Source of the DNA: Prochlorococcus sp. AG-402-I20 | Lineage (GTDB): Bacteria; Cyanobacteriota; Cyanobacteriia; PCC-6307; Cyanobiaceae | DNA: 46,670 nucleotides | Assembly (NCBI GenBank): GCA_003216975.1 | Contig: QCHY01000013.1 | Coordinates: forward strand, 1-46,670 | Reading direction: 5' to 3' | Part shown: positions 5,538-20,491 of the stretch, in pieces | How positions within the stretch are numbered: position 1 is the stretch's first letter | Layout: each line of letters begins with the position of its first letter | The notes under the pieces: generated by a model | Told to the model about the DNA's origin: nothing | What the model saw: the letters and a program-made list of their open reading frames with translations, nothing else | Database searches by the model: none | Made by a program: the position numbers and the translations under genes

Positions 5538-5583
5538 AATCATCACACTCTCAAGTTGTTTAGGCAGTATTAATACATATTGA
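5538..5583 (-). pseudogene. Decayed copy of the argJ 3' end
   Basis: Read on the minus strand this begins CAATATGT, ends ACAACTTGA, and continues with AGAGTGTGAT. The intact argJ end at 19238-19283 reads CAATATGT...ACAACTTGA then AAGTGTGAT. The two share the final TT-stop codons, the QYV codons and about 10 bases beyond the stop, with a short deletion and several changes between. It is in the same orientation as argJ. Confidence 0.5.
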
Positions 5584-5658
5584 AATTAAATAGTTAAGTA
5601 AAGAAGTCTAGCCATATTTTTAAGAGGTAGTTTTAATATATAGAGTTATAGATTTTAA

Positions 5659-6249
5659 ATGTCCCCTGGAATCACTAAGCTTCAGTTGACAGACGCTAGT
5701 ACAATTTCAATTCCTACAGATACAATATTAATACTATTTCTACTAATTGTCTTTCTTTTAATAGGTTATTTCTTTCACAATATCCAACACAATCAAACAA
5801 ATAAATTTTTGGAAAAAGTAGACGATACGTCACATCTGGAATTAGTCAAAGAAAAGCTAGAAGATCAATCAACTCTAGAAACAGCAAAAGTTAATCACGA
5901 AAAATTAGAAAAGTTAAATAATAAACAACTAAATTTGTTATCACCTTCGAAAGCTTGGGGGATTGGTAGTTTGGCTGTTTTAGCCTTAGGAGGATCCAGT
6001 CTTTTCAGGATTCAATCTATCCAAAATTCATATCCAGAAGCGAACACTAGTCAGATCAATATCAAGAGAGAAGATCAATCGGCAAAACCTTTATTATCAA
6101 TAGCTAAAATAAAATCATCTAATCAATCTCAAACTAAAATCAAAAAGATTAGTTATATTAATCCCTTATTATCATCTAATAATAGTTCCAAAAATAATAA
6201 TTTTTTAGGGGTTAGAAAAAGAAAAACAGAAGATTTTTTCTCTTTCTAA
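5659..6249 (+). CDS. Membrane protein with two helices, unknown function
   Basis: A 196-residue protein from ATG 5659. A hydrophobic helix lies at residues 20-41 (ILILFLLIVFLLIGYFF) and a shorter one at about 99-113 (WGIGSLAVLALGG). A charged, probably coiled-coil segment rich in E, K and L (about 50-92) separates them. The C-terminal third is Ser-, Asn- and Lys-rich and probably disordered. No family was recognised. Confidence 0.5.
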   Translation: MSPGITKLQLTDASTISIPTDTILILFLLIVFLLIGYFFHNIQHNQTNKFLEKVDDTSHLELVKEKLEDQSTLETAKVNHEKLEKLNNKQLNLLSPSKAWGIGSLAVLALGGSSLFRIQSIQNSYPEANTSQINIKREDQSAKPLLSIAKIKSSNQSQTKIKKISYINPLLSSNNSSKNNNFLGVRKRKTEDFFSF

Positions 6250-6310
6250 GGCGTAGTAATTTTTTATAGAGGATTGAAAAAGATAATCACCTAAAAATTA
6301 ACAAATAAAT

Positions 6311-6335
6311 AGGGGTTGAAAACATTTTATCCTGT
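6311..6335. repeat. Degenerate copy of the GGGG-TGAAAACATTTT hairpin repeat
   Basis: AGGGGTTGAAAACATTTTATCCT shares the core GAAAACATTTT and the left arm with the hairpins at 14554, 17157 and 19116. The right arm is decayed, so the stem is weak. It lies downstream of the 196-residue membrane protein gene. Confidence 0.5.
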
Positions 6336-6420
6336 ACACAATCAACTACCCCCTCAAGCTTTAAAATTACAAGGTTGATAAGTCTTCAAATAGCACTAGG
6401 AACGGCATAAAGGTCAGCCA

Positions 6421-6470
6421 GCAGAAGAAAGCTTGAGATAGATTGGATCAAGTTTGTTTCACAATCAGAA
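6421..6470 (+). repeat. Dispersed 50-nt repeat, copy 1
   Basis: GCAGAAGAAAGCTTGAGATA and the following 30 bases match 10686-10735 with about 8 differences in 50, and weaker similarity extends some 10 bases to the left. Here the copy abuts the ATG of the SNase gene; the other copy lies about 85 bases upstream of the barrel-like gene at 10820. Both could be leader or promoter regions of common origin. Confidence 0.6.
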
Positions 6471-6943
6471 TGTCAAAGAACAAACTGAACTCCGAGCAAC
6501 GATTCATTAGGAATATCCTTATTGGATTTTTCTCAGCGTTATTTATTGTCTTTATATTTGCGATGCTTGCACTCTTCCAGACACTAACTACTTATCCAAG
6601 CGCTTCTGATATGCCAACAGTCACCATACAAAACTGCTACGACGGGGATACTTGTACAACTAGCGAAGGAGAAAAGATCAGACTTGCTTGTATTGATACT
6701 CCTGAATTGAGAGGTAAGAAAGCTGATCACATTCCTGCGAAAGCAGCAAGAGATTATTTAAATGATTTAGTTGCTGAATCAAAAGTAAACATTCGACGTA
6801 TCGCCGAAGATCGATACGGAAGAACAGTCGCTGAGATATCAAAAGGTCCTATCAATATTCAAGAACACCTAGTTGAAAAAGGCTTTGCAAGGATCTATGA
6901 AAGATATTCAAGTCAATGTGAGTGGAGTAAGAATCAAGTATGA
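6470..6943 (+). CDS. Membrane-anchored staphylococcal-nuclease-like protein (SNase domain)
   Basis: ATG 6470 gives 157 residues. A TTG nine codons upstream (6443) is open but lies in the dispersed repeat, so the ATG is preferred. Residues 14-39 form a membrane anchor, and the SNase domain runs from about 49 to the end. The catalytic residues are visible: the DGDT motif with D60, R71 and D76-T-P-E79 in RLACIDTPE, and R118 in DRYGRT. They match D21, R35, D40, E43 and R87 of staphylococcal nuclease, so it is probably an active Ca-dependent nuclease facing the periplasm or lumen. The C-terminal helix usual in the family is short. Its TGA overlaps the ATG of the next gene, so the two are probably translationally coupled. 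Confidence 0.85.
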   Translation: MSKNKLNSEQRFIRNILIGFFSALFIVFIFAMLALFQTLTTYPSASDMPTVTIQNCYDGDTCTTSEGEKIRLACIDTPELRGKKADHIPAKAARDYLNDLVAESKVNIRRIAEDRYGRTVAEISKGPINIQEHLVEKGFARIYERYSSQCEWSKNQV

Positions 6944-7557
6944 AACTCCGCAACACTGCGATTGCACTAGGAATTGGTGCTGCCACTGCTACTGGTTTAT
7001 CGCTGCTAAAAGTTAACAAGGATCTTGTTGTTGGATCAACTGCTGTCGTTATGGGTGCAGGGTTGATGATTGCTTTAAAAGAAAAGAACGATCTCAATTT
7101 AAAAGAAAGAAACTATGAATATTTTTTTAATAGAGCACAAGATAAATTAGAACTTGCAGATTATGAAGGGGCAATAATCGATTACAACAAAGCATTAGAA
7201 CTTTCACCTAAGGAGATTTGTCTTGTCTACTCAATGCGTGGAAATGCAAAACGTAATTTAGGTGATTTTGATGGCGCAATATCTGATCAAAATAAGGCAT
7301 TAGATTTTGATCCTTTATATGCCGATGGATATTTCAACAGAGGTATTGCCAAGTTTAAAAAGGGAGATTTTGATGATGCAATTCAAGACTATTCACAAGT
7401 TCTAAAAATTAACCCAAAAGATTCAGATGCATTTTTTAATCTTGCCAATGTAAAAAAAGAAATTGGAGATATACAAGGCGCATGCGAGGACTGGAGAAAA
7501 GCAGCAGATCTTGGGGATGATGATGCTACACAGTTCTTAAGGGAGCATTGCGAATGA
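6940..7557 (+). CDS. TPR-repeat protein with N-terminal hydrophobic segment
   Basis: A 205-residue protein whose ATG overlaps the SNase stop (ATGA). Residues 5-47 hold one or two hydrophobic stretches, so it is probably membrane-attached. From about residue 58 it has four tetratricopeptide repeats with the usual A/G/Y/P spacing (NRAQDKLELADYEGAI, MRGNAKRNLGDFDGAI, NRGIAKFKKGDFDDAI, NLANVKKEIGDIQGA), ending in a Sel1-like DWRKAADLGDDDA. TPRs are protein-binding scaffolds. The coupling suggests that it partners the SNase and the following membrane protein. Confidence 0.8.
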   Translation: MKLRNTAIALGIGAATATGLSLLKVNKDLVVGSTAVVMGAGLMIALKEKNDLNLKERNYEYFFNRAQDKLELADYEGAIIDYNKALELSPKEICLVYSMRGNAKRNLGDFDGAISDQNKALDFDPLYADGYFNRGIAKFKKGDFDDAIQDYSQVLKINPKDSDAFFNLANVKKEIGDIQGACEDWRKAADLGDDDATQFLREHCE

Positions 7558-7739
7558 CTCTCTTCCTTGCTGTCTTTATCCCAATAGCAATCTTGGGATT
7601 TCTCTATCTCTTCATCATTGAGAACAATGGTCTTCCAGATTGGATGGCAAGAGCATCTCGAAATAGCAGCTCGATTTGGACCTATGGAATTATCACAATC
7701 ACATCTCTCTCAATCATTAAATTCCTAGTGTCTCGTTGA
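7554..7739 (+). CDS. Small two-helix membrane protein, third gene of the SNase operon
   Basis: ATG 7554 overlaps the TGA of the TPR gene (AATGA). A TTG six bases earlier is also open but less likely. The 61 residues include hydrophobic helices at about 2-22 and 40-58, with a polar loop containing NNGLPDW between them. No family was recognised. The stop codon lies inside a small palindrome TGTCTC-GTT-GAGACA (7729-7743), with no following T-run. Confidence 0.6.
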   Translation: MTLFLAVFIPIAILGFLYLFIIENNGLPDWMARASRNSSSIWTYGIITITSLSIIKFLVSR

Positions 7740-7912
7740 GACAAAGCTTGACTTGCTTAATATTTAAAGCTAGTCATACCAACGCTAAACAGGAATTACA
7801 ACTTTTCAACAACGAGACAGCTGCGTCTGAGTCTGGAATCAAGTCATATATCGCAATAGAGAATGGAGAGAATTTCTAGCTGATCTGGTTTATTAGAAGT
7901 TGTTTAAAAATT

Positions 7913-8107
7913 TTGGCGAGAAGAATTCCTCTAAATTTTGGGAAATCTGAAGATCTTAAGTGTTTAGAGGGTATTGAGAATTTCGACATTCCAACTGCTG
8001 ATGGTTTAACAGAAGTTTGTTACGCAGCAAAAGTTGCTACTCAGTCATTTTTCATCCCATGGCGTGTTTATGTAGATGATTATGTATTTGCCATAGATGG
8101 ATCTTAA
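7913..8107 (+). CDS. Hypothetical protein, 64 aa, no ATG start
   Basis: The frame runs from TTG 7913 to TAA 8105-8107. No in-frame ATG or GTG lies nearby upstream. The peptide (LNFGKSEDLKCLEGIENF...YVDDYVFAIDGS) is balanced and protein-like, without a signal or membrane segment. It may be a small gene with a TTG start or the remnant of a longer gene whose start has decayed. No family was recognised. Confidence 0.4.
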   Translation: MARRIPLNFGKSEDLKCLEGIENFDIPTADGLTEVCYAAKVATQSFFIPWRVYVDDYVFAIDGS

Positions 8108-8189
8108 TCTGGTTATTACAACACAAATGATTCCGTTAAAAATCTCTCCAAAGTACTGAGAAACTACCAACTCCATTACCTGAATATAA

Positions 8190-8318
8190 AATACAGGATT
8201 CGATCTTATATGGGGTAATGCAGCGTGGTTATTTGTTGCTTATGTCGTTATAGCAACTTTAGTTGAGACAATTAAAGATAAGCGAAAAGAAAAGAAAGAA
8301 GAAAATACTGAAGCTTAA
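8190..8318 (+). pseudogene. Possible small membrane ORF without a start codon
   Basis: A 42-codon open frame following TAA at 8187-8189 and ending at TAA 8316-8318. It reads NTGFDLIWGNAAWLFVAYVV and continues with a strongly charged KDKRKEKKEENTEA tail. The helix-plus-charged-tail layout is typical of picocyanobacterial small membrane proteins, but there is no ATG, GTG or TTG in frame ahead of the helix. Either the start codon has been lost or a rare start is used. Confidence 0.3.
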
Positions 8319-8459
8319 AAGAGATACCTCTTAAGTCGCTAAGGAGCTTGATTTGCTCCCTTCGAGTCATCACTACATGGTTGTGAACAATATATAGATA
8401 ATCTATTTTTTCTATATTCTTATATTTTATACTAGGAAAATCAAAGGTATGCAAACAAT

Positions 8460-9839
8460 ATGCCTCAAAATAATCCCCCAATTCTTTTAGAGAACCCACC
8501 CGAAAGTATGCCAGAGCAGGGGAGTAAGGATTATGAATTACTTTTAGAAGAAACAGGGGGAGCATCTGCAAACGAAGGATTTAACTATGAAGCTCATATT
8601 GCTGCTACTCGTCAACAATCAGACACAACTTCAACTTCTGGCTCAACTTCAACTTCTGGCTCAACTTCAACTTCTGACTCAACTTCAACTTCTGACCCTG
8701 AAACAGATGCCAACGGAAATTTAATTGCTCCTGTATATCTTGAGAATCCACCAGCAACAATGCCCGTTAAGGGTACAGACGAATATGCATTATTAGTTAA
8801 AGAAGTGGGCAATACAAATGGGGAAATTTCAGAAGGATTTAACTACAAAGCCCATATCGCTGCTACTCGTCAACCAAAAGATTATCCAGATTGGATAGAC
8901 CCTATAGCAGATATCGATGATCGATGGATTCCCAAGGCAGATCGAGAAGATGCACCTGACCCTGGTTATGTTCCTTCAGCAGATGAAGAAGAGGCATTAC
9001 AACTAACGCCAGACCAAATCCAACCCATTACATATGAAGAGACAGATGCCGATGGCATTGGTATTGCTCCTGTATATCTTGAAAATCCCCCAGAAACAAT
9101 GCCGAAGAAAGGAACTTTGGAATATGCATTACTAGCTAAAGAGATAGGCAATACAAATGGAGAAATACCAAAAGGTTTTAAATATAAAGCTCATATCGCT
9201 GCCACTCGTCAACCAAAAGATTATCCAGATTGGATAGACCCTATAGCAGATATCGATGATCGATGGGTTGAATCAAGCAAACTTAATACCTCTAAAACAT
9301 TTGAAAAAAACCTAGAAGAGTATGATTTCTTTAAAAGAAGTGATGGATCAATTGAAATAAAAACATCAGAAGGTTTTTTTGATGACATCACAGGTATTCC
9401 TAAACTTCAATTTGCAGATAAAGCTGTAAGTGCCATTGCTGAAATAGAAGCAACCTTTGATCAAGTCAAAGCAAAAGATGATGTCACAGGAAAAATGTTT
9501 CGTGTCTATAACGCTGCTTTTAACAGATTTCCTGATTCTGATGGACTTGAGTACTGGATTGAAAAAAATAGTTCAGGAGAAAATACTGAAAGACAGGTAG
9601 CAGAATCTTTCTTAGCATCCTCTGAATTCAAAGAAAAATATGGAGAAGATGTCTCAAATGAACAATATGTGAACAACCTCTATAACAATATTCTTGGACG
9701 AGACGCTGATGCAGACGGATACAACTATTGGGTTGGACAACTCAATAATGGAATTGAGGATAGAAGCGAATTACTTTTAGGGTTTGCAGAATCAGCAGAG
9801 AACAAAGCACTCTTTACTGAGATGACAGGTATTGGTTAA
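8460..9839 (+). CDS. DUF4214 protein with three internal LENPP repeats (probably exported)
   Basis: A 459-residue protein from ATG 8460. Three repeats of the form LENPPxxMPxKGTxEYALL...GFxYKAHIAATRQ occupy about residues 9-52, 93-138 and 206-251. The second and third are each followed by DYPDWIDPIADIDDRW. A Thr/Ser linker (TSTSGS units, residues 57-79) separates the first two. Residues about 283-459 hold the DUF4214 module (FRVYNAAFNRFPDSDGLEYW and VNNLYNNILGRDADADGYNYW). There is no Sec signal; the RTX-associated relatives suggest a C-terminal export signal for type I secretion (inference). It is flanked by a spacer homologous to the one after 16799. Confidence 0.8.
   Translation: MPQNNPPILLENPPESMPEQGSKDYELLLEETGGASANEGFNYEAHIAATRQQSDTTSTSGSTSTSGSTSTSDSTSTSDPETDANGNLIAPVYLENPPATMPVKGTDEYALLVKEVGNTNGEISEGFNYKAHIAATRQPKDYPDWIDPIADIDDRWIPKADREDAPDPGYVPSADEEEALQLTPDQIQPITYEETDADGIGIAPVYLENPPETMPKKGTLEYALLAKEIGNTNGEIPKGFKYKAHIAATRQPKDYPDWIDPIADIDDRWVESSKLNTSKTFEKNLEEYDFFKRSDGSIEIKTSEGFFDDITGIPKLQFADKAVSAIAEIEATFDQVKAKDDVTGKMFRVYNAAFNRFPDSDGLEYWIEKNSSGENTERQVAESFLASSEFKEKYGEDVSNEQYVNNLYNNILGRDADADGYNYWVGQLNNGIEDRSELLLGFAESAENKALFTEMTGIG
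8628..8696 (+). repeat. 18-bp tandem repeat encoding TSTSGS
   Basis: Nearly four copies of an 18-base unit TCAACTTCAACTTCTGGC-type, in frame, encoding TSTSGS, TSTSGS, TSTSDS, TSTSD. It forms a flexible linker and is a likely site of slippage-driven length change. Confidence 0.9.
8865..8927 (+). repeat. 63-nt perfect direct repeat (copy 1; copy 2 at 9204-9266)
   Basis: The two 63-base segments encode the same TRQPKDYPDWIDPIADIDDRW and are identical base for base, while flanking parts of the same protein repeat differ. Identity at silent sites indicates recent duplication or gene conversion inside the gene. Confidence 0.9.
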
Positions 9840-10213
9840 TCGCCTAAATATCAACTATAAATTTATTCACTCTCATTATTCATAGAACCACAACTCATTT
9901 ACCCCCATACGCCGCTTTAATTTCGCTATGCTTAAAGGAATAAAATCTGTCACTTTGTTTCAATCCAACTATGTGCGGATTATATGTGAGCAAAGCGTGA
10001 GCAGCTAAATCCGACACCCTCTAATCTCTTTCATGCCAATCGATCTCAGATTACGTTGTATAATCAACATTTATACTAACCTTTGGGTAGGTTAGTAGTC
10101 TACATCCCTAAGAATGACTGCTATAACTTGACTTTTGAAGAGAAGGCAATATCACACAATTCTCACACTTTCATAGAGAGAGTGAAAACTATTAGCCGCC
10201 TGTAACAATACAA
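9840..10213. repeat. Long dispersed spacer repeat, copy A (matches 16800-17216)
   Basis: Directly after the DUF4214 stop, this segment aligns with the segment after the stop at 16799: CACTCTCATTATTCATA, CCCCCATACGCCGCTT, CAATCCAACTATGTGCGGA, GAGCAAAGCGTGAGCA and so on through TCTCACACTTTCATAGAG. The homology continues from the coding DUF4214 ends, so gene end and spacer were duplicated together. It contains an argJ 3'-end relic (10051 onward) and a decayed hairpin (about 10175). Confidence 0.85.
10051..10110 (-). pseudogene. Decayed copy of the argJ 3' end (copy A)
   Basis: On the minus strand the codons read stop-GCRLLTYPKVSINVDYTT-stop, against WGCDLSDQYVRINADYTT-stop at the end of the intact argJ. 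GC, L, V, IN, DYTT and the stop position are kept. The Trp codon is now TAG. Several differences are synonymous (TAC/TAT, GAC/GAT), as expected if this was once coding argJ sequence rather than a chance match. Confidence 0.65.
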
Positions 10214-10690
10214 TTAAGCAGTTAAAGCAACCGTATCAGCAAATCCATGACCAGTTAAGTAGTTAGTCATCTGATCTAAATTTTGATAATTAGCTTATTG
10301 AATATTGCCATCAGCATGCATAACAGCTCTAAGATATGCAGTATTGTCTACCTTGCTCAAGTACACTTCTTGAAAACCATCTGAGTCATAGTCACCAACA
10401 GTTTTGAGAATCAAGTTGTCAAGTTTTCAATCATTGATAAAAGTCCGAGATCCATCAAAAACACTATCTTTTTCTACAACTCCTGCAGTAACTAAAGGAT
10501 CTTCATAGATACCTACAACTCTTGTAGAACCTCCATATCCATTTTTTGAAGTATCAAATTCTCCAGTAATAGGATCTAATGATGCTGTTAGCCAACGACC
10601 ACTCTCTTGGTTTGTAAAAACTGCTTCTGTAATTCCGTCATTATTAACATCTAATTAACCTTGGTATTTGAGGAAGATCAACCTAGCAGA
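10214..10690 (-). pseudogene. Broken gene end of a calcium-binding/VCBS-like surface protein
   Basis: Reading the minus strand from about 10690 to TAA at 10216-10214 gives LIFLKYQG-stop-LDVNNDGITEAVFTNQES, GRWLTASLDPITGEFD, FINDstop, VGDYDSDGFQEVYLSKVDNT, AYLRAVMHADGNIQstop, NYLTGHGFADTVALTA. Three internal stops break an otherwise continuous frame. DVNNDG and DYDSDG are acidic Ca-binding-like motifs of the FG-GAP/VCBS type, seen in large surface proteins of marine Synechococcus and Prochlorococcus. It is the eroded C-terminus of such a gene. The frame has no long open stretch, so simple ORF finding misses it. Confidence 0.8.
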
Positions 10691-10735
10691 GGAAAGTTTG
10701 AGATGGATTGGCTCAAGTTAGGCTCACAATCACAA
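10686..10735 (+). repeat. Dispersed 50-nt repeat, copy 2
   Basis: Matches 6421-6470 with about 8 differences in 50 bases. It lies between the broken gene at 10214-10690 and the gene at 10820. Confidence 0.6.
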
Positions 10736-10819
10736 ATCAACTTTCAATGCAAACACGTTAGAAAAGCTAGAATAACTAGACAAGCACCCAAGCGAAGAAT
10801 ATTTAAGTGACTTCTTATA

Positions 10820-11512
10820 ATGAATATTTTCCTTACATTATTTTTTTTTATATCTGCATGTAATCTAAAACCAGCCCATGGAGAGGAAAGATTACAAATA
10901 AAAGGTTTAAATTTAGGTATTTATGAAAAAGGTACATATATGGGCATATTTACAAATTTGAATGATAACGATCAACTAAATTTGAGACTAAATTACTTCA
11001 AAATACCAATAGGAAAATATGATATCGGTTTGTCTGAAAGTATCAAGTTAAATTTTTCATCTTTTGGTGCACAATTTAATTATAGAAAATACTTTCAGGC
11101 TAAAAGATATCAGGGGTTCTTCACACAAGCTGGAATAGAGTTAAATAATTACTCTTTATACTCCAGAGTCAATTTATCTGAATTAGACTATCAAATAGGA
11201 AATGTAACACTCCTTTGTCCATCTTGTAGTTCTCTTGAATTAAGTATTAAACCCAAAGCTATAGCAATAATCCCTAGTCTATCTCTTGGCTGGACAAAAA
11301 AATTAACTAAAAATATATCATTAGACTCTTCTATTGGATTTCAATACCTTAAGATCAATAATGCAGAATGGGAATACAATTTTAATTCTTCATTACCTTT
11401 TTTTGTAAGAGATGAGATAGAGGAGGCAGTAGAAGATATAAATTCACAAATTCAAAAATTACCACGTATATATCCTACCGCTAGCATAAATCTTTCATAT
11501 TATTTTAAATAG
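10820..11512 (+). CDS. Exported beta-barrel-like protein, possible outer-membrane protein
   Basis: A 230-residue protein from ATG 10820 with an N-terminal signal (MNIFLTLFFFISAC). Cleavage could be at the ISAC lipobox, giving a lipoprotein, or after AHG (residue 21). The mature part alternates hydrophobic and polar residues with aromatic girdles (LNLRLNYFKIP, FGAQFNYRKYF, YPTASINLSYYFK) and ends in an aromatic residue near the C-terminus, as in outer-membrane barrels. CPSC near residue 132 could form a loop disulfide. No named family was recognised. It sits just ahead of a DUF4214 gene in the same direction. Confidence 0.6.
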   Translation: MNIFLTLFFFISACNLKPAHGEERLQIKGLNLGIYEKGTYMGIFTNLNDNDQLNLRLNYFKIPIGKYDIGLSESIKLNFSSFGAQFNYRKYFQAKRYQGFFTQAGIELNNYSLYSRVNLSELDYQIGNVTLLCPSCSSLELSIKPKAIAIIPSLSLGWTKKLTKNISLDSSIGFQYLKINNAEWEYNFNSSLPFFVRDEIEEAVEDINSQIQKLPRIYPTASINLSYYFK

Positions 11513-11632
11513 AATAAAGTAATTAAAACAATTTATAATAATAGATTAATTTTTGTATTTTTTTGGTTAAAAATCTAAGTCTTTGAATTAATTTAATAAT
11601 CTATACAATCTAGAAGTAGTAGTAAAGCCTCA

Positions 11633-13093
11633 ATGGCTGAGATTTCATTCACAACACTTTCATATTCAGGAGTAACTTTTACCCCTAATGAATATTTCAT
11701 TGGTGATTCAATAGCATGGATGAACAGCCATATCAAAAATATTCAAAGAGAAATAGATTTAGTTAATGAAAGTCCTAATCAGGGGAAAATTAATTCAGCT
11801 AAAAATACTATTGATTATGCGATAGCTTTAAATGATTTACCTCGACTTTCATTTACACTTACAATAGGCGACGATTTCAACTTAAGAGCTGTATCTCAAT
11901 CAGGATATGAAACAAATATTGCTTTTAAAGGATACTATGAAAATATTGCTGGATCCATAGGAACAGAAGTCAATGGATCGATATCTTTTAATGGGATTGA
12001 TATAGATATAAATTTCAATGGCGCACAATTATATAAAGCACAACTGATTGGAAATTTTTCCATAAATATATTGACTAACAATATAGATCTTTCTTCAGAT
12101 ATATCTAAGTTGAGTTTCATATCATCTACTGGAGAGGAGATTTCATATAAAGGAAACCTTTCATTTTCAATTAATGACGAGACTTCTAAAGATTATTTCA
12201 ACTATCTAACTAAAGATTCAGATATTATATATGGCACACAATATATTGATGAGATTAATTCTGGCTCTGGTGATGACGCAATATATTCCTATGGAGGCAA
12301 TGATCTTATAGATGGAGGTTTAGGAATTGATACTGTCAAGCTCACGGGAAAATTTGAAGAGTATACTTTTGCACGGTCATCAAACTCCCTGAAAACTACC
12401 GATAAAGCATTGAATCGTGTTACTCCAGATAGAGACGGTTTGTTTAATGATGGAACAAATACTCTCACAAATATTGAATATATTCAGTTTTCAGATCAAA
12501 CAGTAGAAGCATCTAAAGTAGACGTAGTAAAAACATATAGCGGTAACTTTAGTGATTATAATTTCTATAGCAAAGGTAATGGTGTCTATCAAATAAAAAC
12601 AGACTCTGGATATGATGATATCACTGGATATCCTTTGTTGAGGTTTACAGGGGAAGCAAATACGAGTTCATTTAAAGAAGTCAGTGCAATTGCAGATATT
12701 AAAGGAACTTTTGATCAGATCACTGGATTGAATACTAATTCTGGACGCATGTTCCGTTTATATAACGCATCATTTAAACGATTACCTGATGCTGATGGTT
12801 TGGAGTATTGGATTAATCAGTTCAGCTCTGGAGCAAATAGCATCAGAGTTATTGCCTCCTCATTCTTAGGCTCTGCTGAATTTGCAGAACGCTATGGTGC
12901 GAACGTCTCTGATGAAAAATACGTAACAACCCTCTATCAAAATGTTCTAGGAAGATCACCTGATTCAAGCGGATTAAATTATTGGTTAGGTCAATTAAGT
13001 AGTGGCGCAGAAACTCGATATGAAGCTCTCCTTGGATTTGCAGAATCAGCAGAAAACAAAGCCCTCTTTACTGTCATGACTGGATTTGGGTAA
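11633..13093 (+). CDS. DUF4214 protein with one RTX-like calcium-binding segment
   Basis: A 486-residue protein from ATG 11633. Residues about 1-195 are of unknown fold. Residues about 203-230 carry degenerate hemolysin-type Ca-binding repeats (YGTQYIDEINSGSGDDAI, GGNDLIDGGLGIDTV), followed by a short domain typical of RTX protein ends (FSDQTVEASK). The DUF4214 module fills about 345-486 (FRLYNASFKRLPDADGLEYW and VTTLYQNVLGRSPDSSGLNYW). No Sec signal is seen. RTX proteins are usually exported by type I secretion to the cell surface or medium. The next gene starts 3 bases after the stop. Confidence 0.8.
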   Translation: MAEISFTTLSYSGVTFTPNEYFIGDSIAWMNSHIKNIQREIDLVNESPNQGKINSAKNTIDYAIALNDLPRLSFTLTIGDDFNLRAVSQSGYETNIAFKGYYENIAGSIGTEVNGSISFNGIDIDINFNGAQLYKAQLIGNFSINILTNNIDLSSDISKLSFISSTGEEISYKGNLSFSINDETSKDYFNYLTKDSDIIYGTQYIDEINSGSGDDAIYSYGGNDLIDGGLGIDTVKLTGKFEEYTFARSSNSLKTTDKALNRVTPDRDGLFNDGTNTLTNIEYIQFSDQTVEASKVDVVKTYSGNFSDYNFYSKGNGVYQIKTDSGYDDITGYPLLRFTGEANTSSFKEVSAIADIKGTFDQITGLNTNSGRMFRLYNASFKRLPDADGLEYWINQFSSGANSIRVIASSFLGSAEFAERYGANVSDEKYVTTLYQNVLGRSPDSSGLNYWLGQLSSGAETRYEALLGFAESAENKALFTVMTGFG

Positions 13094-13329: not shown

Positions 13330-13343
13330 AGTACAGATGTACT
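13330..13343 (+). promoter_or_regulatory. Predicted LexA (SOS) box
   Basis: AGTACAGATGTACT is a perfect palindrome with a 2-nt centre and matches the cyanobacterial LexA consensus RGTACNNNDGTWCB at every defined position. TATAAA at 13346-13351 would be the -10 element, placing the box over the -35 position, where a repressor would block transcription. A TTGACA lies further upstream at 13305. The next gene starts at 13438. The assignment is by motif only. Confidence 0.6.
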
Positions 13344-13437
13344 GCTATAAACACATGGCTCCAACGTCCTCACCCTATGCCGTTTTTCGTGCATCAGATT
13401 GGAATTCAGTGGTAGCAGAACCTATTGGATTAAGGCA

Positions 13438-13719: not shown

Positions 13720-13723
13720 TCAA

Positions 13724-13885: not shown

Positions 13886-14009
13886 AAAGTTCAAAGAATC
13901 CCAGAGACAACCAGCATCTGCCTGATAACCACACCCACAACACAAAAAAGGATTACTCGGCTTAAGACATAAAAGGGAAGATTATTCATCTAACTTCTCA
14001 ACAGATCAA

Positions 14010-14285
14010 TCAATCACCAAAACGATAATGCTTACGGACTGCCTTATGAACATCCCATCTACAGTCCATTCCTGCAGGGAAGACAACTAAATCACCTGCA
14101 CCAAATTTCACAGGTTCTCCTCCTTCAGGAGTAACTGTGACTTCACCCTCAAGCAATAAGCAAGTCTCTTGATCGTCATATGTCCAATCAAAAGAGCTTT
14201 CTTCACAAGTCCAAATTGGCCAATTTTTAATTCCTAATTCTTCAATGGTACTCTCAGGACAAGGAGAGGTGACTGATATCGACAA
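14010..14285 (-). CDS. Cupin-domain protein (cupin_3/DUF861, EutQ-like)
   Basis: 91 residues. The frame opens with TTG at 14285; no ATG is in frame nearby, and the length fits the family. The single cupin barrel shows EESSFDWTYDDQETCLLLEG and GAGDLVVFPAGMDCRW, matching the two conserved cupin_3 motifs. The E of the first motif is kept, while the usual His residues are replaced, as is common in DUF861. The substrate is unknown; members bind small ligands or metals in the cytoplasm. It stands alone, on the minus strand. Confidence 0.85.
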   Translation of the reverse strand: MSISVTSPCPESTIEELGIKNWPIWTCEESSFDWTYDDQETCLLLEGEVTVTPEGGEPVKFGAGDLVVFPAGMDCRWDVHKAVRKHYRFGD

Positions 14286-14429
14286 GAGATAAAAACATAC
14301 TGGACTTCTTTTTTAGCTACTAATAGAAACAGTTGTCTAATAGCTACTCAAATTTTGACAAAAATATTTGAAAGCGTATTACGTATAGAGCGAGGATCGA
14401 GAGTCCCCCATACACCCTTCAAATAGAAA

Positions 14430-14608
14430 AATAATACGTCTTATAATACTGTTACCTTAGTGTTACCCCTGCACTCTGTGTTCTTTAAGTTAACTGCAAT
14501 AACTAGACTCTTGAAGAAAAGGCGATATCAACACGATTCTCACACTTTCATAGAGGGGGTGAAAACATTTTCATCCCCTATAGCAATTCAATTAGATAAT
14601 TAAGTCAA
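14430..14608. repeat. Dispersed spacer repeat, copy B
   Basis: Shares with copies A and C the stretch CTGCACTC...ACTAGACTCTTGAAGA, AAAAGGC, TTCTCACACTTTCATAGAG and the following hairpin, then AATTCAATTAGATAATTAAG. The left part (ACGTCTTATAATAC...) corresponds to the argJ relic position but is heavily decayed. The region left of the relic in copies A and C is absent here. Confidence 0.75.
14554..14579. repeat. Hairpin repeat AGGGGGTGAAAA/TTTTCATCCCCT
   Basis: AGGGGGTGAAAACATTTT then CATCCCCT: a 12-bp stem with one mismatch or wobble. It belongs to the family seen perfectly at 17157-17182. Here it lies between divergent genes, where a terminator is not expected, so it is probably part of a mobile or recombining repeat. 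Confidence 0.8.
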
Positions 14609-14622
14609 CAATTACCTCTACT

Positions 14623-14642
14623 GATGTCCCCTTAATGGACAT
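14623..14642 (+). repeat. 7-bp stem-loop
   Basis: GATGTCC, loop CCTTAA with T, GGACATC. Perfect 7-bp arms. It lies about 120 bases upstream of the short frame at 14763 and just left of a second hairpin. Confidence 0.55.
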
Positions 14643-14695
14643 CCTGTGAGTACTTTCTTTTATCTCTCCCAACTAACTATTAACTCTTCAATCAT

Positions 14696-14734
14696 GATGA
14701 TCTCTATCGTCCCTGAATGACGATCTGGATCATC
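14696..14734 (+). repeat. 39-nt imperfect hairpin
   Basis: GATGATC then ATCGTC, loop CCTGAAT, GACGAT then GATCATC. Outer 7-bp and inner 6-bp stems are separated by a symmetric 3-nt internal loop. No T-run follows. It could be an RNA leader structure for the short frame at 14763, or an operator pair. Confidence 0.6.
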
Positions 14735-14762
14735 CCTATTGATACTTACCTAACAACTACTA

Positions 14763-14888
14763 ATGAAAGAGAAGAAACAACAACCTACTACCTCAAAGAA
14801 ATCAAGTCACAACACTCTTGATTGGATAGAGAAGCAACTAAGAGATGTTGTAGCTTTTGAAATGGGATTATCGATAAAGAATGAATAA
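14763..14888 (+). CDS. Possible short protein, 41 aa
   Basis: ATG 14763 to TAA 14886-14888. The peptide starts MKEKKQQPTTSKKSSHNT and ends LRDVVAFEMGLSIKNE: a basic tail followed by an amphipathic helix. It is plausible as a small DNA- or protein-binding peptide but lacks family support. Confidence 0.35.
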   Translation: MKEKKQQPTTSKKSSHNTLDWIEKQLRDVVAFEMGLSIKNE

Positions 14889-15113
14889 TCAACGCACACA
14901 AGAATAAAAGACTAGTCTTTTAATATGATAGAAAATCTATGGTTTCATAGACAAAAAGCCTATGTCAACAATAGATTTTAGGAAAGGATCTCAAGAATAT
15001 TTAGGAAGAAATGCGTCTGGAATGAGAATAGTTTGATTTTGTTACTTATCTCGCTAGATAAAATAGTTTAGCTAGCTTTCGATGCTGTATATTATGCATT
15101 TCATATTTAATAG

Positions 15114-16799
15114 ATGTCTAATTCGAATATTGAATTTTTATTAAATAATTCTAATGCTAGTCAGAGAGATTATATAAAGACAATCTTAGAAAATAAATTA
15201 ATCAATTATTCTCTTTCCTCAAATCATAGTGATATTGAGTCTAACTGGTTTCAGAAAACTTTTAAACATATTACCAATCTTTCAGGCATAGAGTTTAAAT
15301 TAACAGATCAAACCTCATCAGATATTCATTATACTTTAGAAATAGTAAGTGAAGATGAATGGGAAAAAACTGATGATTTATCAAAGAGAATTATTGAAAC
15401 TGATAACAAGAAGTTCAACTACCAAACGCCACATAAAACTAATTCATATGGCGGAGTTAGTGCACAATGTGAAGTTTCAAGAGTAATTCTTAAGTCTCTA
15501 GGTTTATCATTTCCAAATGGTAATTCTTTGGATGCAAATTATACTTTTAATGATTCAATTATGTCAGGCAATTTAGTTGGTCAACTAAAAGCCGGAAGAG
15601 TGATTTCAACAACGGCTAATGATCAATTAGCTATTCAATCCATACTAGGTACAAATAATGCACAATTAGAAACTGAAAAATATCATAATACAAAATTAAA
15701 TGAGGATTTATTAATAGGAGAAAACGGGAGAAAGGATTATTTTATTCTAAATAGAAAAGGTTGCTATACAGGAGCAGATGCGGCTCATACATTTGAAGAA
15801 AGTTCTGATGGACAAGGAACTATCTTTAAGAATTTTGATTATTTAAATGCATCGGTTGCGAATTTTAATCCAGAGGAAGGAGATAAAATATTTTTATCTA
15901 GAAAATTATTTAGCCCATATGGAGATGGTTACCCTACAAGTGAAGAGATAGCTTTAACAAATGCATGGGTAAAAAATGATGGCAAAGATGTAGTGATCGA
16001 TCTTATACAAGCCTCGGAGGATTTAGGTCCATTTGAGACTGAAGATGAATTGCATATGAATTCATCCTCTAATTTAATTTTCAATGAGGCAGGTAAACTT
16101 ATATTAAATGTGAACGGTACAGAACAGTACGTTGGACCATGGGGAGGTGCTGTACCTTCATACGTGAATGGACACCTTGCAGCATTTATAGATATTCAAG
16201 ATACTCATTATAGAAAGCTGCCACTTAATTGTTTTGAGATAGTTGATTACGATTGGAAAGCTACATCTAATAGTTATGATAATAATTTTTACAAATTAGC
16301 TGATAATCGTTTTGGATTTGGTCAAACGAAAGATACTGTCGATGAAATTACAGGATTGGCCACGATTCAGTTTAATGACAAGAGTTTGCATGTAACTAAT
16401 GATATCAAAGGAACATTTGATCAAGTGACCGGATTAAATACAGACTCTGGAGAAATGTTCCGTCTTTATAACGCTGCATTCGCGCGCTTCCCTGATGCTG
16501 ACGGATTGAAGTACTGGATTGATCAATTCAGTTCCGGACGTAACACTAGACGAGTTGTTGCTCAATCATTTTTAGGTTCTGCAGAATTCACTGAGAAGTA
16601 TGGAAGCAATGTAAGTGATGAGACATACGTCAATAATCTCTATAAGAATGTCCTAGGAAGAGATGCTGATGCTGAAGGACTTAACTACTGGGTAGGAAAT
16701 CTCAGCAGCGGACTTGAAACCCGCTATGAAGCCCTCCTAGGGTTTGCAGAGTCAGCAGAGAACAAAGCGCTCTTTACTGAGATGACTGGTTTTGGTTAA
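15114..16799 (+). CDS. DUF4214 protein with inactive serralysin-like (M10) metzincin domain
   Basis: 561 residues from ATG 15114. The N-terminal domain follows the serralysin layout: a helix at 118-133 (QCEVSRVILKSLGLSFPNG) where HExxHxxGxxH is expected, DSIMS at 147-151 like the Met-turn, then QLAIQSILGTN (171-181) like the DIAAIQxLYG end of M10 domains. The zinc His positions are Cys119, Arg123 and Phe133; Glu120 remains. It therefore should not be a functional zinc protease. A middle domain of unknown fold follows, then DUF4214 at about 420-561 (FRLYNAAFARFPDADGLKYW, VNNLYKNVLGRDADAEGLNYW). It is probably a secreted or surface protein. Confidence 0.75.
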   Translation: MSNSNIEFLLNNSNASQRDYIKTILENKLINYSLSSNHSDIESNWFQKTFKHITNLSGIEFKLTDQTSSDIHYTLEIVSEDEWEKTDDLSKRIIETDNKKFNYQTPHKTNSYGGVSAQCEVSRVILKSLGLSFPNGNSLDANYTFNDSIMSGNLVGQLKAGRVISTTANDQLAIQSILGTNNAQLETEKYHNTKLNEDLLIGENGRKDYFILNRKGCYTGADAAHTFEESSDGQGTIFKNFDYLNASVANFNPEEGDKIFLSRKLFSPYGDGYPTSEEIALTNAWVKNDGKDVVIDLIQASEDLGPFETEDELHMNSSSNLIFNEAGKLILNVNGTEQYVGPWGGAVPSYVNGHLAAFIDIQDTHYRKLPLNCFEIVDYDWKATSNSYDNNFYKLADNRFGFGQTKDTVDEITGLATIQFNDKSLHVTNDIKGTFDQVTGLNTDSGEMFRLYNAAFARFPDADGLKYWIDQFSSGRNTRRVVAQSFLGSAEFTEKYGSNVSDETYVNNLYKNVLGRDADAEGLNYWVGNLSSGLETRYEALLGFAESAENKALFTEMTGFG

Positions 16800-17010
16800 C
16801 CACTTAGATCTCCACCACAAATTTCTTCACTCTCATTATTCATACAACCACCACTCATTTCCCCCCATACGCCGCTTCACTTTCGCTATCTTGCAAGGAA
16901 TCAAATCTATCACTTTGTATCAATCCAACTATGTGCGGATTATGCGTGAGCAAAGCGTGAGCAACTAAATCCGACTACCTCTAATCTCTTTTATACCAAT
17001 AGATCTCAGC

Positions 17011-17070
17011 TTACGTTGTATAATCGGCATTTATATTAACCTTTGGGTATGTTAGTAGTCTGCACTCTTA
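17011..17070 (-). pseudogene. Decayed copy of the argJ 3' end (copy C)
   Basis: On the minus strand the codons read ECRLLTYPKVNINADYTT-stop, against GCDLSDQYVRINADYTT-stop in the intact argJ. INADYTT-stop is fully kept at the protein level with synonymous differences (GAT/GAC, TAT/TAC, ACG/ACT, TAA/TGA). A stop codon (TAA, rc of 17068-17070) and frame noise appear further upstream, so it is a relic. Same orientation as argJ. Confidence 0.7.
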
Positions 17071-17156
17071 AGATTGACTGCCATAACTAGACTCTTGAAG
17101 AAAAGGCAACATCACACAATTCTCACACTCCTCTCAAAATTCTCACACTTTCATAG

Positions 17157-17182
17157 AGGGGGTGAAAACATTTTCACCCCCT
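17157..17182. terminator. Perfect 12-bp hairpin AGGGGGTGAAAA/TTTTCACCCCCT (repeat family)
   Basis: AGGGGGTGAAAA-CA-TTTTCACCCCCT, a perfect inverted repeat between the convergent genes 15114-16799 and 17219-19015. Its A and T tracts would give U-runs in either direction only weakly, so it may act as a bidirectional terminator. Related copies lie at 6311, 14554, 19116 and, decayed, about 10175. Confidence 0.65.
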
Positions 17183-17218
17183 GTAGCGATTCAATTAGAT
17201 AATTAAGTCAAGTAATCT

Positions 17219-19015
17219 TTAGATGATATCTGTAATCATGCTTTCAATTCCTGGGAAGATATCGTAATTAGTTTCGTTAATTTGATTGAAGTGATCTAAT
17301 CCAGAATTCATACCAATAAATCCAATATCCTCATAAAGAGAGGGTTCATATGAATGAGATACTATTTCTTTATAATTAATATCTGAGCAAAGGTAGTCAT
17401 TATCACTATCTGATGAAACTAGATTTTGTTCCTCAGTCGTTACCTTAAAAGAATTGCTATCAATAGTACTATTTTGTATATCAGTGATTGAATCTCTATT
17501 CGATAGATTTGGATCAATTAAAAGTTTAAAGCTACTTGATGAAGATAAACTTCCAAACTTTGCAACACTGCTATCAATACTCGATGAGGTATGTGTGTTG
17601 TATTGACCTATTCCAGATATATAATTTTTAGCTTCTGTCAAATTAGATCCTGTAACCCAAGGAGTTGTTGATTGAGGTTGATAATCAAGTATCAAAGATG
17701 TTTTTGTTTGAATTTTTGCTGTATAAGCAATTGCTGCATTAGTTTTATTCGAAAGTACAGTGGCATCAATAGAACCTCCAGAATTATTTTCAGCAGCCCA
17801 AATCAAATCATTGGCAATAGATGCTAGTTGCAATGAACCATTATTGATTTGAGTTGACCAATAAAGAAGTCCATCTACATCACCTTCTCTATTAAATAAA
17901 TTCAGATAGATTTGATTGACTTGCGCCATTACTGAAAGATTTCCGTTTGCATTATTAAATTCAGGTTGCAAGTACATATTTGCCGCGAAATCACTTCTGC
18001 TAATCCCCTCTTGTGTCCAATACTTTAGACCTGCTGGATCACAGGGACGACTAAAATAGGCAATATAGAGTTGTTGTAATTCTGTTGAAGTTGCAGAAAT
18101 TTGATTTGATGTATTGGTAGATGTAGAGGTAGAGGTAGAGGTAGATGTAGATGTAGTATTTGAAAGATTAAGAGATTGACTAGTAGTTTTTAAACCATCA
18201 GTAAATCTCAGATTTTCAATATTCTTTAGAGTGTCAGTTCCATCATTAGATCCACTACTAATATCTTTAACTGTTAAGTAAGAAGCAGTACCAGAAAATT
18301 GATAATCTGATGATTTTCCACTGAACCAAACTTCATCAACTCCAGACCCACCATCGACATCATCATTACCTTTCCCAGGTGTAATACTGTCTCCTCCAGT
18401 ACCACCTCTAATAACATCAGATCCATCTCCACCATTGATAATATCTGACCCTGATTCTCCATCTAAAATATCATTACCACCATTACCATAAATAACATCA
18501 TTTCCTGGACCAGCCTCTATTTCATCTGCAAAATTTGTTGCACTAAAAGTCTCATTTCCACTTACATAATATAAATAATCATCATACAAAGTACCATTTA
18601 ATTTTGAATAATCAAAGTTACCACTGATAACACCTTTAACTCCAGTAATGTAATCAGTAGATTCAGATTTTGTAAAATAACCAATAACATCTCCATCTTC
18701 TGTTGTGGATCCTGCACCATATACAGTTCCAGCAGAATATGGTCTACCGTATTGCTCTACATAAACATATGCATCCCCATAAGATAGTGTAGATCCATAA
18801 CTTCTCAAGTTTTTATACTCATAATCCAATCGAAAAGAATCAACAGCCAGTGACATTTTCCCATCACTTACTAATGATTCAGATAGAATCGAAAAATTGC
18901 CATTTTCTAGGTTGTCTAATGCTGATTGATATGAAAGTACTCTAGGATCAAATCTATAAAAATTTTTAGTATATTTAACCCCTTCTGATCCACCAGTCCA
19001 AGTTATTCTAGTCAT
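17219..19015 (-). CDS. RTX-type exported protein with DUF4214-like region, 598 aa
   Basis: Starts at ATG 19015. Residues about 1-165 are of unknown fold. Residues about 170-225 carry tandem Ca-binding nonapeptides (GPGNDVIYGNGGNDILDG, GGDGSDVIRGGTGGDS, GKGNDDVDGGSG). A short RTX-end domain with DGTDTLKNIENLRFTDG follows, then a TSTS linker (about 290-301) and a DUF4214-related segment (QQLYIAYFSRPCDPAGLKYW, NQIYLNLFNREGDVDGLLYW). The C-terminus is Ser- and Asp-rich. No Sec signal; type I secretion is expected for RTX proteins. It belongs to a different DUF4214 subfamily from the three forward genes. It is read in the same direction as argJ. Confidence 0.8.
   Translation of the reverse strand: MTRITWTGGSEGVKYTKNFYRFDPRVLSYQSALDNLENGNFSILSESLVSDGKMSLAVDSFRLDYEYKNLRSYGSTLSYGDAYVYVEQYGRPYSAGTVYGAGSTTEDGDVIGYFTKSESTDYITGVKGVISGNFDYSKLNGTLYDDYLYYVSGNETFSATNFADEIEAGPGNDVIYGNGGNDILDGESGSDIINGGDGSDVIRGGTGGDSITPGKGNDDVDGGSGVDEVWFSGKSSDYQFSGTASYLTVKDISSGSNDGTDTLKNIENLRFTDGLKTTSQSLNLSNTTSTSTSTSTSTSTNTSNQISATSTELQQLYIAYFSRPCDPAGLKYWTQEGISRSDFAANMYLQPEFNNANGNLSVMAQVNQIYLNLFNREGDVDGLLYWSTQINNGSLQLASIANDLIWAAENNSGGSIDATVLSNKTNAAIAYTAKIQTKTSLILDYQPQSTTPWVTGSNLTEAKNYISGIGQYNTHTSSSIDSSVAKFGSLSSSSSFKLLIDPNLSNRDSITDIQNSTIDSNSFKVTTEEQNLVSSDSDNDYLCSDINYKEIVSHSYEPSLYEDIGFIGMNSGLDHFNQINETNYDIFPGIESMITDII
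18118..18156 (-). repeat. 6-bp tandem repeat encoding a Thr-Ser linker
   Basis: About six copies of GGTAGA or TGTAGA on the plus strand, encoding (TS)n on the minus strand. It is in frame and therefore a length-variable linker. Confidence 0.85.
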
Positions 19016-19115
19016 CTATAAGCTAACGCAAGTAGAAACATATATAAACTTTAGTATATGTTCTAGTTTGTATATCTCGATCAAATAATATTGATATGGT
19101 TTTCAACAAGTACAT

Positions 19116-19140
19116 AGGGGATGAAAACATTTTTACCCCA
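19116..19140. repeat. Hairpin repeat family, degenerate copy downstream of argJ
   Basis: AGGGGATGAAAACATTTT then TACCCCA. The GGGG/CCCC arms and the GAAAACATTTT core are kept, with mismatches between them. It lies about 110 bases past the argJ stop and upstream of the RTX gene. It may terminate argJ transcription. Confidence 0.6.
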
Positions 19141-19249
19141 ATCATTTAAAAGATGCGTAGTGAAATCACATTATTCTCACAAAATCAAAATATGATTACG
19201 CACATCGCAAATAATTCAGTCATGCTAATGGATTTCAATTATCACACTT

Positions 19250-20491
19250 TCAAGTTGTGTAGTCGGCATTTATACGAACATATTGATCAGACAAATCACA
19301 CCCCCAAGCCGTAGCCGAACCATTACCTATCCCTATAACTAATTTGATACTTATAAGATCATCGATCAAATATTTCCCTTTTAATCTTGCTTTCATAAAG
19401 TTACTAACTATTTGTCTATCAAAGTCCAGAGGTACTCCATTAGAGAATATTTCATATGGTCCAATCCATAATTTAACATCATTAAAATTAAAAGAAGTAC
19501 CTGCTCGACCAAGTGCAGCAATAATTCTTCCCCAATTAGGATCTGAACCATGAACTGCAGTTTTAACTAAAGAGGATGAAGCAATTGTGCGAGCTACTAG
19601 ATGAGCATCTAAGTTAGTTTTAGCACCCTCTACTTTTATCTCAAGCAAACAATTAGCACCTTCACCATCCCTTGCAATTGATTTAGCCAGGTATTGAGCG
19701 GTTAAATGTAGTCCCTCTTCGAGGATTGATAAATATCTTGGATCTAATTTTGCTCCAGAAGAGAAAGCTAAAAAAGTATCATTTGTACTCGTATCTCCAT
19801 CAACTGTAATGGCATTAAAAGATGATTCTGCAACTCGCTTAATCATATCCGACCATAAAATATAATCTATACCTACATCACAGGTAATATAACTCAACAT
19901 TGTTGCCATTGATGGGTGAATCATACCTGAACCTTTAGCCATTCCTCCAATAGATATTCGTCTCCCTCCTACAACTGCTTGATATGCAATTTGCTTTACC
20001 TGAAGATCTGTTGTAAGAATTGCATTTGCTGCATCCAGATAAGCCTCCTTATCTAAACTCTGGATAAGATGATCCAAATGACTATTGACTCTTTCTACAG
20101 GTATTGGCTCACCAATTACACCAGTAGAACATATCAAAACTTCTTCATTAGATAATCCCAATCGTTGAGCAAGCTCATGTGTAATAATTTCACTATCAAT
20201 TTTGCCTCTCTTACCTGTACAAGCATTTGCCTGTCCCGAGTTGATCACTACAGCACGTATTTTGCCCTCAGATTCCTTAAGTCGATCAATGCATAAATCT
20301 ACGCAAGAAGCTCGAGTGATTGATTGAGTAAATGTCCCACTACAACACGCACCATTTGGCGCATAAAGCAACGCAAGGTCTTTCTTACCGGAGGGTTTCA
20401 ATCCTGCGGCAATACCAGCGGCTAAAAAACCATCAGGGGCGGTAATACCACCAGGAATTGGAGACCATACAGAAGATGTCAAAAAACTCAA
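19250..20491 (-). CDS. argJ: Arginine biosynthesis bifunctional protein ArgJ
   Basis: ArgJ transfers the acetyl group of N-acetylornithine to glutamate and can also acetylate glutamate with acetyl-CoA, in the cytoplasmic arginine cycle. 413 residues is normal. The self-cleavage site lies in KGSGMIHPSMATML, with the nucleophile Thr197 becoming the N-terminus of the beta chain. TSTNDT is at 235-240, and the usual INADYTT ends the protein. The frame opens with TTG at 20491, which places SPIPGGITAPDGF where the family has it. It is divergent from coaE, 37 bases away. Its 3' end borders the accessory island and is echoed by decayed copies inside it. Confidence 0.95.
   Translation of the reverse strand: MSFLTSSVWSPIPGGITAPDGFLAAGIAAGLKPSGKKDLALLYAPNGACCSGTFTQSITRASCVDLCIDRLKESEGKIRAVVINSGQANACTGKRGKIDSEIITHELAQRLGLSNEEVLICSTGVIGEPIPVERVNSHLDHLIQSLDKEAYLDAANAILTTDLQVKQIAYQAVVGGRRISIGGMAKGSGMIHPSMATMLSYITCDVGIDYILWSDMIKRVAESSFNAITVDGDTSTNDTFLAFSSGAKLDPRYLSILEEGLHLTAQYLAKSIARDGEGANCLLEIKVEGAKTNLDAHLVARTIASSSLVKTAVHGSDPNWGRIIAALGRAGTSFNFNDVKLWIGPYEIFSNGVPLDFDRQIVSNFMKARLKGKYLIDDLISIKLVIGIGNGSATAWGCDLSDQYVRINADYTT

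Follow-up and report, generated by a model that had tools for sequence, protein, structure and literature searches.

The question raised by this locus is why the 3' end of one protein gene, argJ, should recur as decayed copies throughout the island that lies next to it. The window, a stretch of 46,670 nucleotides from Prochlorococcus sp. AG-402-I20 (contig QCHY01000013.1), carries an intact argJ whose 3' end reads WGCDLSDQYVRINADYTT followed by the stop, and an island of approximately 16.6 kb separates this gene from a set of conserved genes. Sequence comparison lends good support to repeated site-specific insertion at the argJ 3' end, and we consider it very probable that site-specific integration at the end of a protein gene has here built arrays resembling those of integrons. 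A sequence-only reading of the window had proposed such serial insertion, with the last codons of argJ replaced each time, and the proposal is upheld by 15 types of right flank, by core halves that are linked separately to their flanks and by the comparison of empty and filled sites.

Copies of the argJ end in the window and in related genomes

The target gene, the copies of its end and the arms that adjoin them are arranged as follows.

19250-20491, minus strand: argJ, the target gene, with an intact reading frame and TTG listed as its start (Pfam ArgJ, E=1.5e-132)
19250-19273, minus strand: presumed current attachment core at the argJ 3' end, ATAAATGCCGACTACACAACTTGA, encoding INADYTT and the stop
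17035-17211, minus strand: arm of the unit adjoining argJ, arm type L3, with best matches in genomes G002 and G008
17011-17034, minus strand: relic core 1, ATAAATGCCGATTATACAACGTAA, with zero mismatches to the core pattern
14475-14608, minus strand: L3-type arm of an eroded junction, the core of which (near 14430-14475) is beyond recognition
10099-10231, minus strand: L3-type arm adjoining relic core 2
10051-10074, minus strand: relic core 2, ATAAATGTTGATTATACAACGTAA, 11.4 bits, with two octamer bases changed
5538-5583, minus strand: relic core 3, aligned with a 4-base gap and then the right arm AGTGTGAT, which resembles that of argJ here

The relics at 17011, 10051 and 5538 share the orientation of argJ. 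Local alignment to the argJ end (-60 to +25) gave scores of 54 for 5538-5583, 44 for 17011, 42 for 10051 and 26 for the proposed relic at ~14430, while the best score anywhere in each of 100 Markov shuffles of 19.2 kb had a mean of 33.5, a 95th percentile of 40 and a maximum of 44. The 5538 relic lies above all shuffles, the 17011 relic ties the highest and the 10051 relic is above the 95th percentile; by this control, the profile shuffles and the reversed pattern described below, chance similarity was rejected for these three. The score at ~14430 equals the 95th percentile per 140 nt (26) and by itself is not above chance, and what points to a step there is the arm 14475-14608 alone, which repeats 10099-10231 and 17059-17211. 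With its score at chance level and its core lost, the ~14430 step finds no support as an argJ relic on its own sequence. Four relics had been claimed from the window by itself, to be judged by whether they align better than shuffled sequence: the claim stands for 17011, 10051 and 5538 and fails at ~14430, and because of that step the observation is only partly confirmed.

The same copies recur among relatives. We searched 41 genomes of the same genus, 34 of which have argJ, and scanned 402,557 nt of DNA downstream of these genes with a profile of their last 45 nt (G and L numbers, other than the arm type above, are our labels for genomes and loci). The scan returned 47 copies of at least 10 bits (43 on the same strand and 4 on the opposite strand, the window's own two best relics among them) compared with 0.0 in five Markov shuffles, and at least one match of 9 bits or more was present at 24 of the 34 argJ loci. 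All four opposite-strand copies belong to G002, in which the ladder is inverted and four relics, 5.2-9.1 kb behind argJ (L072), are all inverted relative to it. The core pattern was present in 37 of the 41 whole genomes, its reversed control gave 0 matches in the 41 at up to 1 mismatch, and in the six single-contig genomes (G002-G007) 12 of 13 copies other than argJ itself fell within 17 kb behind argJ. With up to 2 mismatches allowed, the core was matched in 268 of the family's 350 genomes; among the matches listed most are argJ itself, and the reversed control matched four times in all. Repeated cores are also found by comparison in other genera: G092 has five including that of argJ, spaced 0.7-1.3 kb apart, and G104 and G050 have one relic each; no relic of at least 9 bits was found in G043, G079, G097 or G117. 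The ladder of G001 precedes the conserved genes, with argJ ~38 kb off, which suggests a rearrangement. A second core accompanied by a left arm lies very near the argJ stop in two loci, ~130 bp away in L273 (G050) and ~205 bp in L272 (G104), apparently a cassette reduced to its ends.

Some genomes, which we take to be high-light Prochlorococcus, have an argJ that ends in EINSEYTT instead. Behind four such genes lie six relics of the INSEYTT version: L269 has four, L270 and L256 have one apiece and L253 has none. Of the six, four are exactly AATAGCGAATATAC and two are one base off, as counted without a shuffle control. This comparison indicates that the relic core follows the coding version of its host's argJ.

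The exchange point and the units gained

If units enter at the argJ end, the core should record where the exchange takes place. The flanks of 109 cores were sorted into types by our own clustering threshold, giving 15 right-arm types and 12 left-arm types seen at least twice, the argJ body apart. Linkage was tested on 102 cores, seven having been dropped for lacking AAT at positions 4-6 or A at position 11, and drew on types with at least 3 members (82 rows on the right side, 52 relics on the left). Bases at positions 12, 15, 18, 21 and 24 vary with the right-arm type (z 11.7-19.5, 0 of 1000 shuffles) and none of them with the left type, those at position 23 likewise with the right-arm type (z 7.3), and those at positions -5 to 0, 2 and 3 with the left type (z 6.2-11.9, 0 of 1000 shuffles). 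The four octamer positions left, 7-10, differ in no more than 5 of the 82 rows. Kinship within types inflates the z values, yet it would not make linkage change sides at the same octamer. This switch, seen by comparison, fits an exchange inside the octamer AATGCCGA, as a crossover would leave, and the octamer sits in an imperfect dyad (GTATnA/YTAYAC). At fixed distances, 41 of the 109 right arms carry a CAGTNATAGCAATNGATT-like motif with at least 12 of 16 matches where 0.5 would be expected, and 21 of the 75 left arms carry it inverted where 0.2 would be expected; none of the 34 argJ bodies has it. In the opposite orientation it was found in 8 of 75 left arms and 14 of 109 right arms. The fixed distances suggest that these arm motifs are putative protein-binding sites.

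Gain of a unit can be followed between genomes. In G024 and G031, argJ is followed directly by a 603-bp unit and a HupE/UreJ cassette, and a block of 1761 bp that lies at the argJ end in G024 recurs at 99.1% identity in G006 at a relic ~1.4 kb further out, with a different unit between argJ and the common block. The block is 89.9% identical between G006 and G004, and in G007 it is found (97.7% identity) behind three units. Matches between empty and filled sites begin 27-34 nt before the argJ stop (G024, G031 and G004 versus G006; G024 versus G007), and the comparison shows the ~1.4-kb unit inserted at the argJ end. Rank varies similarly for a 1.3-kb cassette present in five genomes, where it is first in G020 and G033, third in G007, fourth in G014 and part of the inverted ladder in G002; its gene is cyanate lyase in G033 and G007, the two of the five that were checked (Pfam E=2.2e-36). 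Units are also common to different genera (G037 with G068, G006 with G078). At L158 (contig 27 of G036), two 1711-bp units of one kind enclose a different unit, as if the repeated unit had been inserted twice or duplicated. Whether cargo beyond argJ differs by genome had been proposed as a check, and the DNA directly after the stop does fall into 15 types among the 34 genomes.

The units are small. The 82 intervals between neighbouring cores have a median of 1713.5 bp, and 39 of them hold exactly one open reading frame of at least 60 amino acids, oriented against argJ in 21 cases and with it in 18; five hold none. Among 73 proteins of at least 85 amino acids from intervals of up to 4.2 kb, DUF4214 was found in 15, cyanate lyase in 6 and HupE/UreJ in 4, together with TPR, beta-barrel and restriction-modification proteins (counts from the best 25 of 55 and the best 25 of 87 families). 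The larger intervals, with 74 proteins of at least 150 amino acids, yielded 11 Phage_integrase and 8 Resolvase matches and type I restriction subunits in two (from the best 25 of 79 families). Across units, cargo comprises DUF4214/RTX surface proteins, cyanate lyase, porin-like proteins and restriction-modification.

In the window, the island and its far side contain the following genes.

661-2677, no strand given: conserved genes (105, 176 and 111 amino acids) past the island, marking its far side
8460-9839, plus strand: cargo, a 459-amino-acid DUF4214 protein
11633-13093, plus strand: cargo, a 486-amino-acid DUF4214 and RTX protein
15114-16799, plus strand: cargo, a 561-amino-acid DUF4214 protein
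17219-19015, minus strand: cargo of the unit adjoining argJ (~17035-19249), a 598-amino-acid DUF4214 and RTX-repeat protein

RTX repeats are present in two of these four DUF4214 genes. The ~210 bp behind the 3' end of the 15114-16799 gene form the R1 arm, which directly abuts argJ in six relatives (G002, G012, G014, G017, G019 and G021). Measured to the 111-amino-acid gene, the interval that holds the island spans 7.2 kb (G006) to 21 kb (G003) in those same-genus genomes in which it was seen. Near-perfect hairpins of the GGGGGTGAAAACATTTTCACCCCC kind repeat in the island spacers at 14551-14582, 17154-17185 and 19114-19139, the 3' flank of argJ included.

A tyrosine integrase family beside the core

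The sequence-only reading had also proposed looking for a tyrosine recombinase at this locus in related strains, and one is found there in G005, G037, G038, G039 and G040. Thirteen related tyrosine integrases, aligned, are 26-58% identical to the first and share the invariant residues R313, K350, YSFRH 434-438, Y464 and Y469 (the last two in the numbering of the G005 protein). Fifteen non-redundant members start 95-204 bp from a core, with families I and III on the opposite strand from argJ and family II behind the core on argJ's own strand. These 15 are 18 rows less duplicates of the same gene, and many of the loci had been chosen for argJ or a core; the protein search of genome contigs is the fairer test. 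It recovered 36 loci, all cyanobacterial and nearly all from Prochlorococcus, Synechococcus or Cyanobium. Of 22 near-full-length integrases, 19 begin their open frame 48-173 bp from a core. One more, in L253, lies behind argJ itself, which has a variant end that the profile had overlooked, and this brings the total beside a core or argJ to 20. Ten of the 22 loci were newly found by this search, and eight of these ten fit the adjacency that the comparison indicates. Near-full-length integrases are present in 11 of 19 intervals of 5-12 kb and in none of the 63 that measure up to 4.2 kb, although three of these contain a fragment. One query, III_G163b, proved to be no integrase, and its rows (L213 10555, the start of L222, and L081) were discarded.

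Two remnants that resemble this family lie in the window.

10671-10718, plus strand: decayed C-terminal tail of a family-I integrase, RKINLAEESLRWIGSS, with weaker similarity from 10563
6409-6453, plus strand: second decayed integrase tail, KGQPAEESLR*IGSS, a repeat of the tail at 10671

The first reached E=0.005 when the whole window was searched (0.003 for a longer stretch), and the second E=0.003 in a search limited to 5584-6500. Reversed queries reached E=0.14, and one other forward match, at 30110 (E=0.037), was taken as chance. Both tails are on the expected strand and side for the cores at 10051 and 5551. They lie 0.6-0.9 kb from these cores, compared with ~1.6 kb expected, and therefore most of each integrase gene would have been lost. 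Many decayed integrases persist as their last ~16-60 residues (...AEESLRWIGSS), the window tails included.

A phage origin for the system was considered and rejected. The single core match in viral contigs, L140, looks like chance in a phage-like contig, alignment search for integrase relatives found none among 114 pattern matches in viral contigs, and none of 50,697 phage records matched the G005 integrase. Directly behind rpsD, the gene for ribosomal protein S4, lies a different tyrosine recombinase of 475-513 amino acids (L156:10777-12902 in G004 and L141:7819-9940 in G015), which suggests the rpsD 3' flank as a second protein-gene site; a repeat of the rpsD end in that second island amounted to merely 10-15 base matches and was not accepted.

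Weighing the mechanism against rival explanations and known systems

We propose that the last ~24-33 bp of argJ would serve as the chromosomal attachment site of this picocyanobacterial integrase family. A presumably circular unit with its own core would recombine with the argJ core by a crossover inside AATGCCGA, supplying new last codons and a stop such that argJ remains intact, and the old argJ end would be pushed outward together with the previous unit. Repetition would build a ladder with the youngest unit beside argJ. Some large units carry a near-full-length integrase and cargo such as type I restriction; catalysis by the core-adjacent integrase is likely, and the small, often one-gene units devoid of it were probably moved in trans.

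Several observations weigh against this mechanism. Positions 4, 5, 6 and 11 are invariant by core selection, the arm types depend on the clustering threshold, and weak links to the opposite side occur at positions -2 and 3 for the right type (z 2.4 and 2.3) and at positions 16 and 23 for the left type (z 2.0 and 2.5). No relic of at least 9 bits was found at 10 of the 34 same-genus argJ loci, four of which had less than 2.2 kb of downstream sequence, and of eight genomes from other genera, complete or nearly so, four (L271, L274, L275 and L276) had none in 12-13.5 kb. Cores exist away from argJ, as in the island behind rpsD in G004 and G015, and draft genomes carry many on contigs lacking argJ; repeats far from argJ and unlike it had been named beforehand as telling against insertion, and in the cases examined the distant cores still carry the argJ end. 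Two of the 22 integrases have neither a core nor argJ beside them (L237, and L240, which is broken and near a contig edge), and the search alignment was built from core-adjacent integrases. No intact family member was found in the window's own genome (92% complete, searched without a positive control), and no excision product or circle was seen.

Three other explanations were weighed. The least improbable, to which we nonetheless give little credence, is that DNA uptake is followed by homologous recombination between cores and shared arms, through which units come and go, the integrases being passengers. Units of up to 4.2 kb contain no near-full-length integrase and one unit occurs twice in L158, as this would allow, but the shared stretch is merely ~24-33 bp, linkage switches from left to right within one octamer, the integrases are placed at the core in an orientation fixed for each family, and the arm motifs suggest protein-binding sites.

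Slightly less credible still is that the relics are the 3' flanks of tandemly duplicated DUF4214 genes, their likeness to argJ being ancestral to one junction and copied by homologous duplication. The segments 16738-17037 and 9778-10077 are 88% identical, DUF4214 gene end and core included, and the arms of the steps at 17011, 14430 and 10051 belong to one family. Against this, the cores of relatives flank unrelated cargo with differing arms of 15 right and 12 left types, the halves of the core assort separately, and one unit is found at different ranks. Because the three steps share an arm family and the first and last share one DUF4214 gene end, tandem duplication could have made some steps inside the window, a further point against insertion as their sole source, and DUF4214 duplication may explain one or two of them.

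The third takes the core for an independent dispersed repeat, a regulatory or terminator element whose likeness to the argJ end is incidental. It was already disfavoured and is highly improbable: some cores do lie away from argJ and the arm motifs keep fixed distances, but the reversed pattern is absent from the 41 genomes, nearly all copies outside argJ in the single-contig genomes cluster behind it, the copies encode the host's own argJ ending, INSEYTT included, and a unit was gained exactly there.

Site-specific integration at argJ thus remains the preferred reading, and it bears on the open question of how streamlined Prochlorococcus cells, said to be without canonical transfer mechanisms in the part of the source consulted (PMC10654061), gain and lose genes. 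It would add a receiving site that recurs across the family, in a protein gene rather than a tRNA gene, for units down to one gene, with niche genes such as that for cyanate lyase among the cargo. As every insertion leaves a scar, the ladder would record the order in which genes were acquired, and both core and integrase are directly testable in a laboratory host.

Among described systems, additive islands and tycheposons, both at tRNA genes, and islands in protein genes come closest, and features of genomic islands are present at argJ: the end of the target gene repeated directly at the distal junction, an integrase beside the attachment site (20 of 22), and empty and filled sites with breakpoints in the repeat. 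Additive flexible genomic islands, such as fGI-2 of Methylopumilus (PMC10872708) and fGI1 of Actinomarinales (PMC7771536), likewise grow, in the passages compared, by serial addition of small cassettes at a gene end with direct repeats of that end left behind; their target is a tRNA gene whereas that of the present system is a protein gene, and those passages mention no site-tied integrase family or exchange point. Tycheposons of Prochlorococcus, described as occupying seven tRNA genes with sizes of 4-200 kb (PMC10872708, PMC10654061), resemble the argJ units as tyrosine recombinase elements with cargo, nitrogen genes included, in the same organisms, whereas the argJ units sit at a protein gene with a median of 1.7 kb. 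A tyrosine recombinase with cargo, one tycheposon trait, is present at argJ units. An island at a tRNA gene was rejected here, the target being argJ, with no tRNA gene in the window or in the 13 loci scanned and one tmRNA in L174. At a putative P-SS2 phage integration site of Prochlorococcus MIT9313, the excerpt available describes five copies of a 36-bp tRNA-Met end with degraded transposases, related to the phage by a 53-bp match (PMC2784084); several gene-end copies are thus piled up at a putative picocyanobacterial integration site there as here, with tRNA-Met in place of the protein gene argJ.

Fixed protein-gene sites are known from the dusA islands, which have a tyrosine integrase and excised circles shown by PCR (PMC4482086), and from SGI1 at the trmE 3' end (PMC8409611). 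As far as the material compared extends, dusA islands use the 5' end of their gene and argJ units the 3' end, and arrays of one-gene units are a feature of the argJ site not met in the dusA and SGI1 accounts (PMC4482086, PMC8409611). In the literature searched, we found no description of the argJ site, of a one-gene array with a linked integrase family or of a core that follows its host, and none of the picocyanobacterial argJ passages among the excerpts checked concerns islands; the tycheposon study of Hackl et al. 2023 lay outside this coverage and could mention argJ.

Integrons combine one receiving site, an array of one-gene cassettes and a tyrosine recombinase, with the newest cassette next to the site. 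The argJ ladder is alike in its one receiving site, its one-gene array with the newest unit next to that site and a recombinase presumably acting in trans, and differs in that its single genes stand in either orientation. Membership of the integron class was nevertheless unsupported: in an NCBIfam test that had no IntI control, seven of the 13 integrases matched NF040815 (tyrosine recombinase/integron integrase) weakly, the first member at 22.6 bits against a cut-off of 220, and four matched XerD (best E 5.9e-9), while eight stretches examined for attC-like folding (six relic junctions and two argJ junctions) folded no better than shuffles (z -1.10 to 0.84), although the predicted fold of one of them, L077:4216-4346, does pair its two arms. 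A tentative proposal, for which we see somewhat less than an even chance, is that picocyanobacteria independently evolved an integron-like platform of their own, in which an intermittently carried integrase would act in trans on a permanent argJ-end site and shuffle cassettes of one gene each, for cyanate lyase, methylases and porin-like and surface proteins, between lineages of Prochlorococcus and Synechococcus, the core following the argJ of each host.

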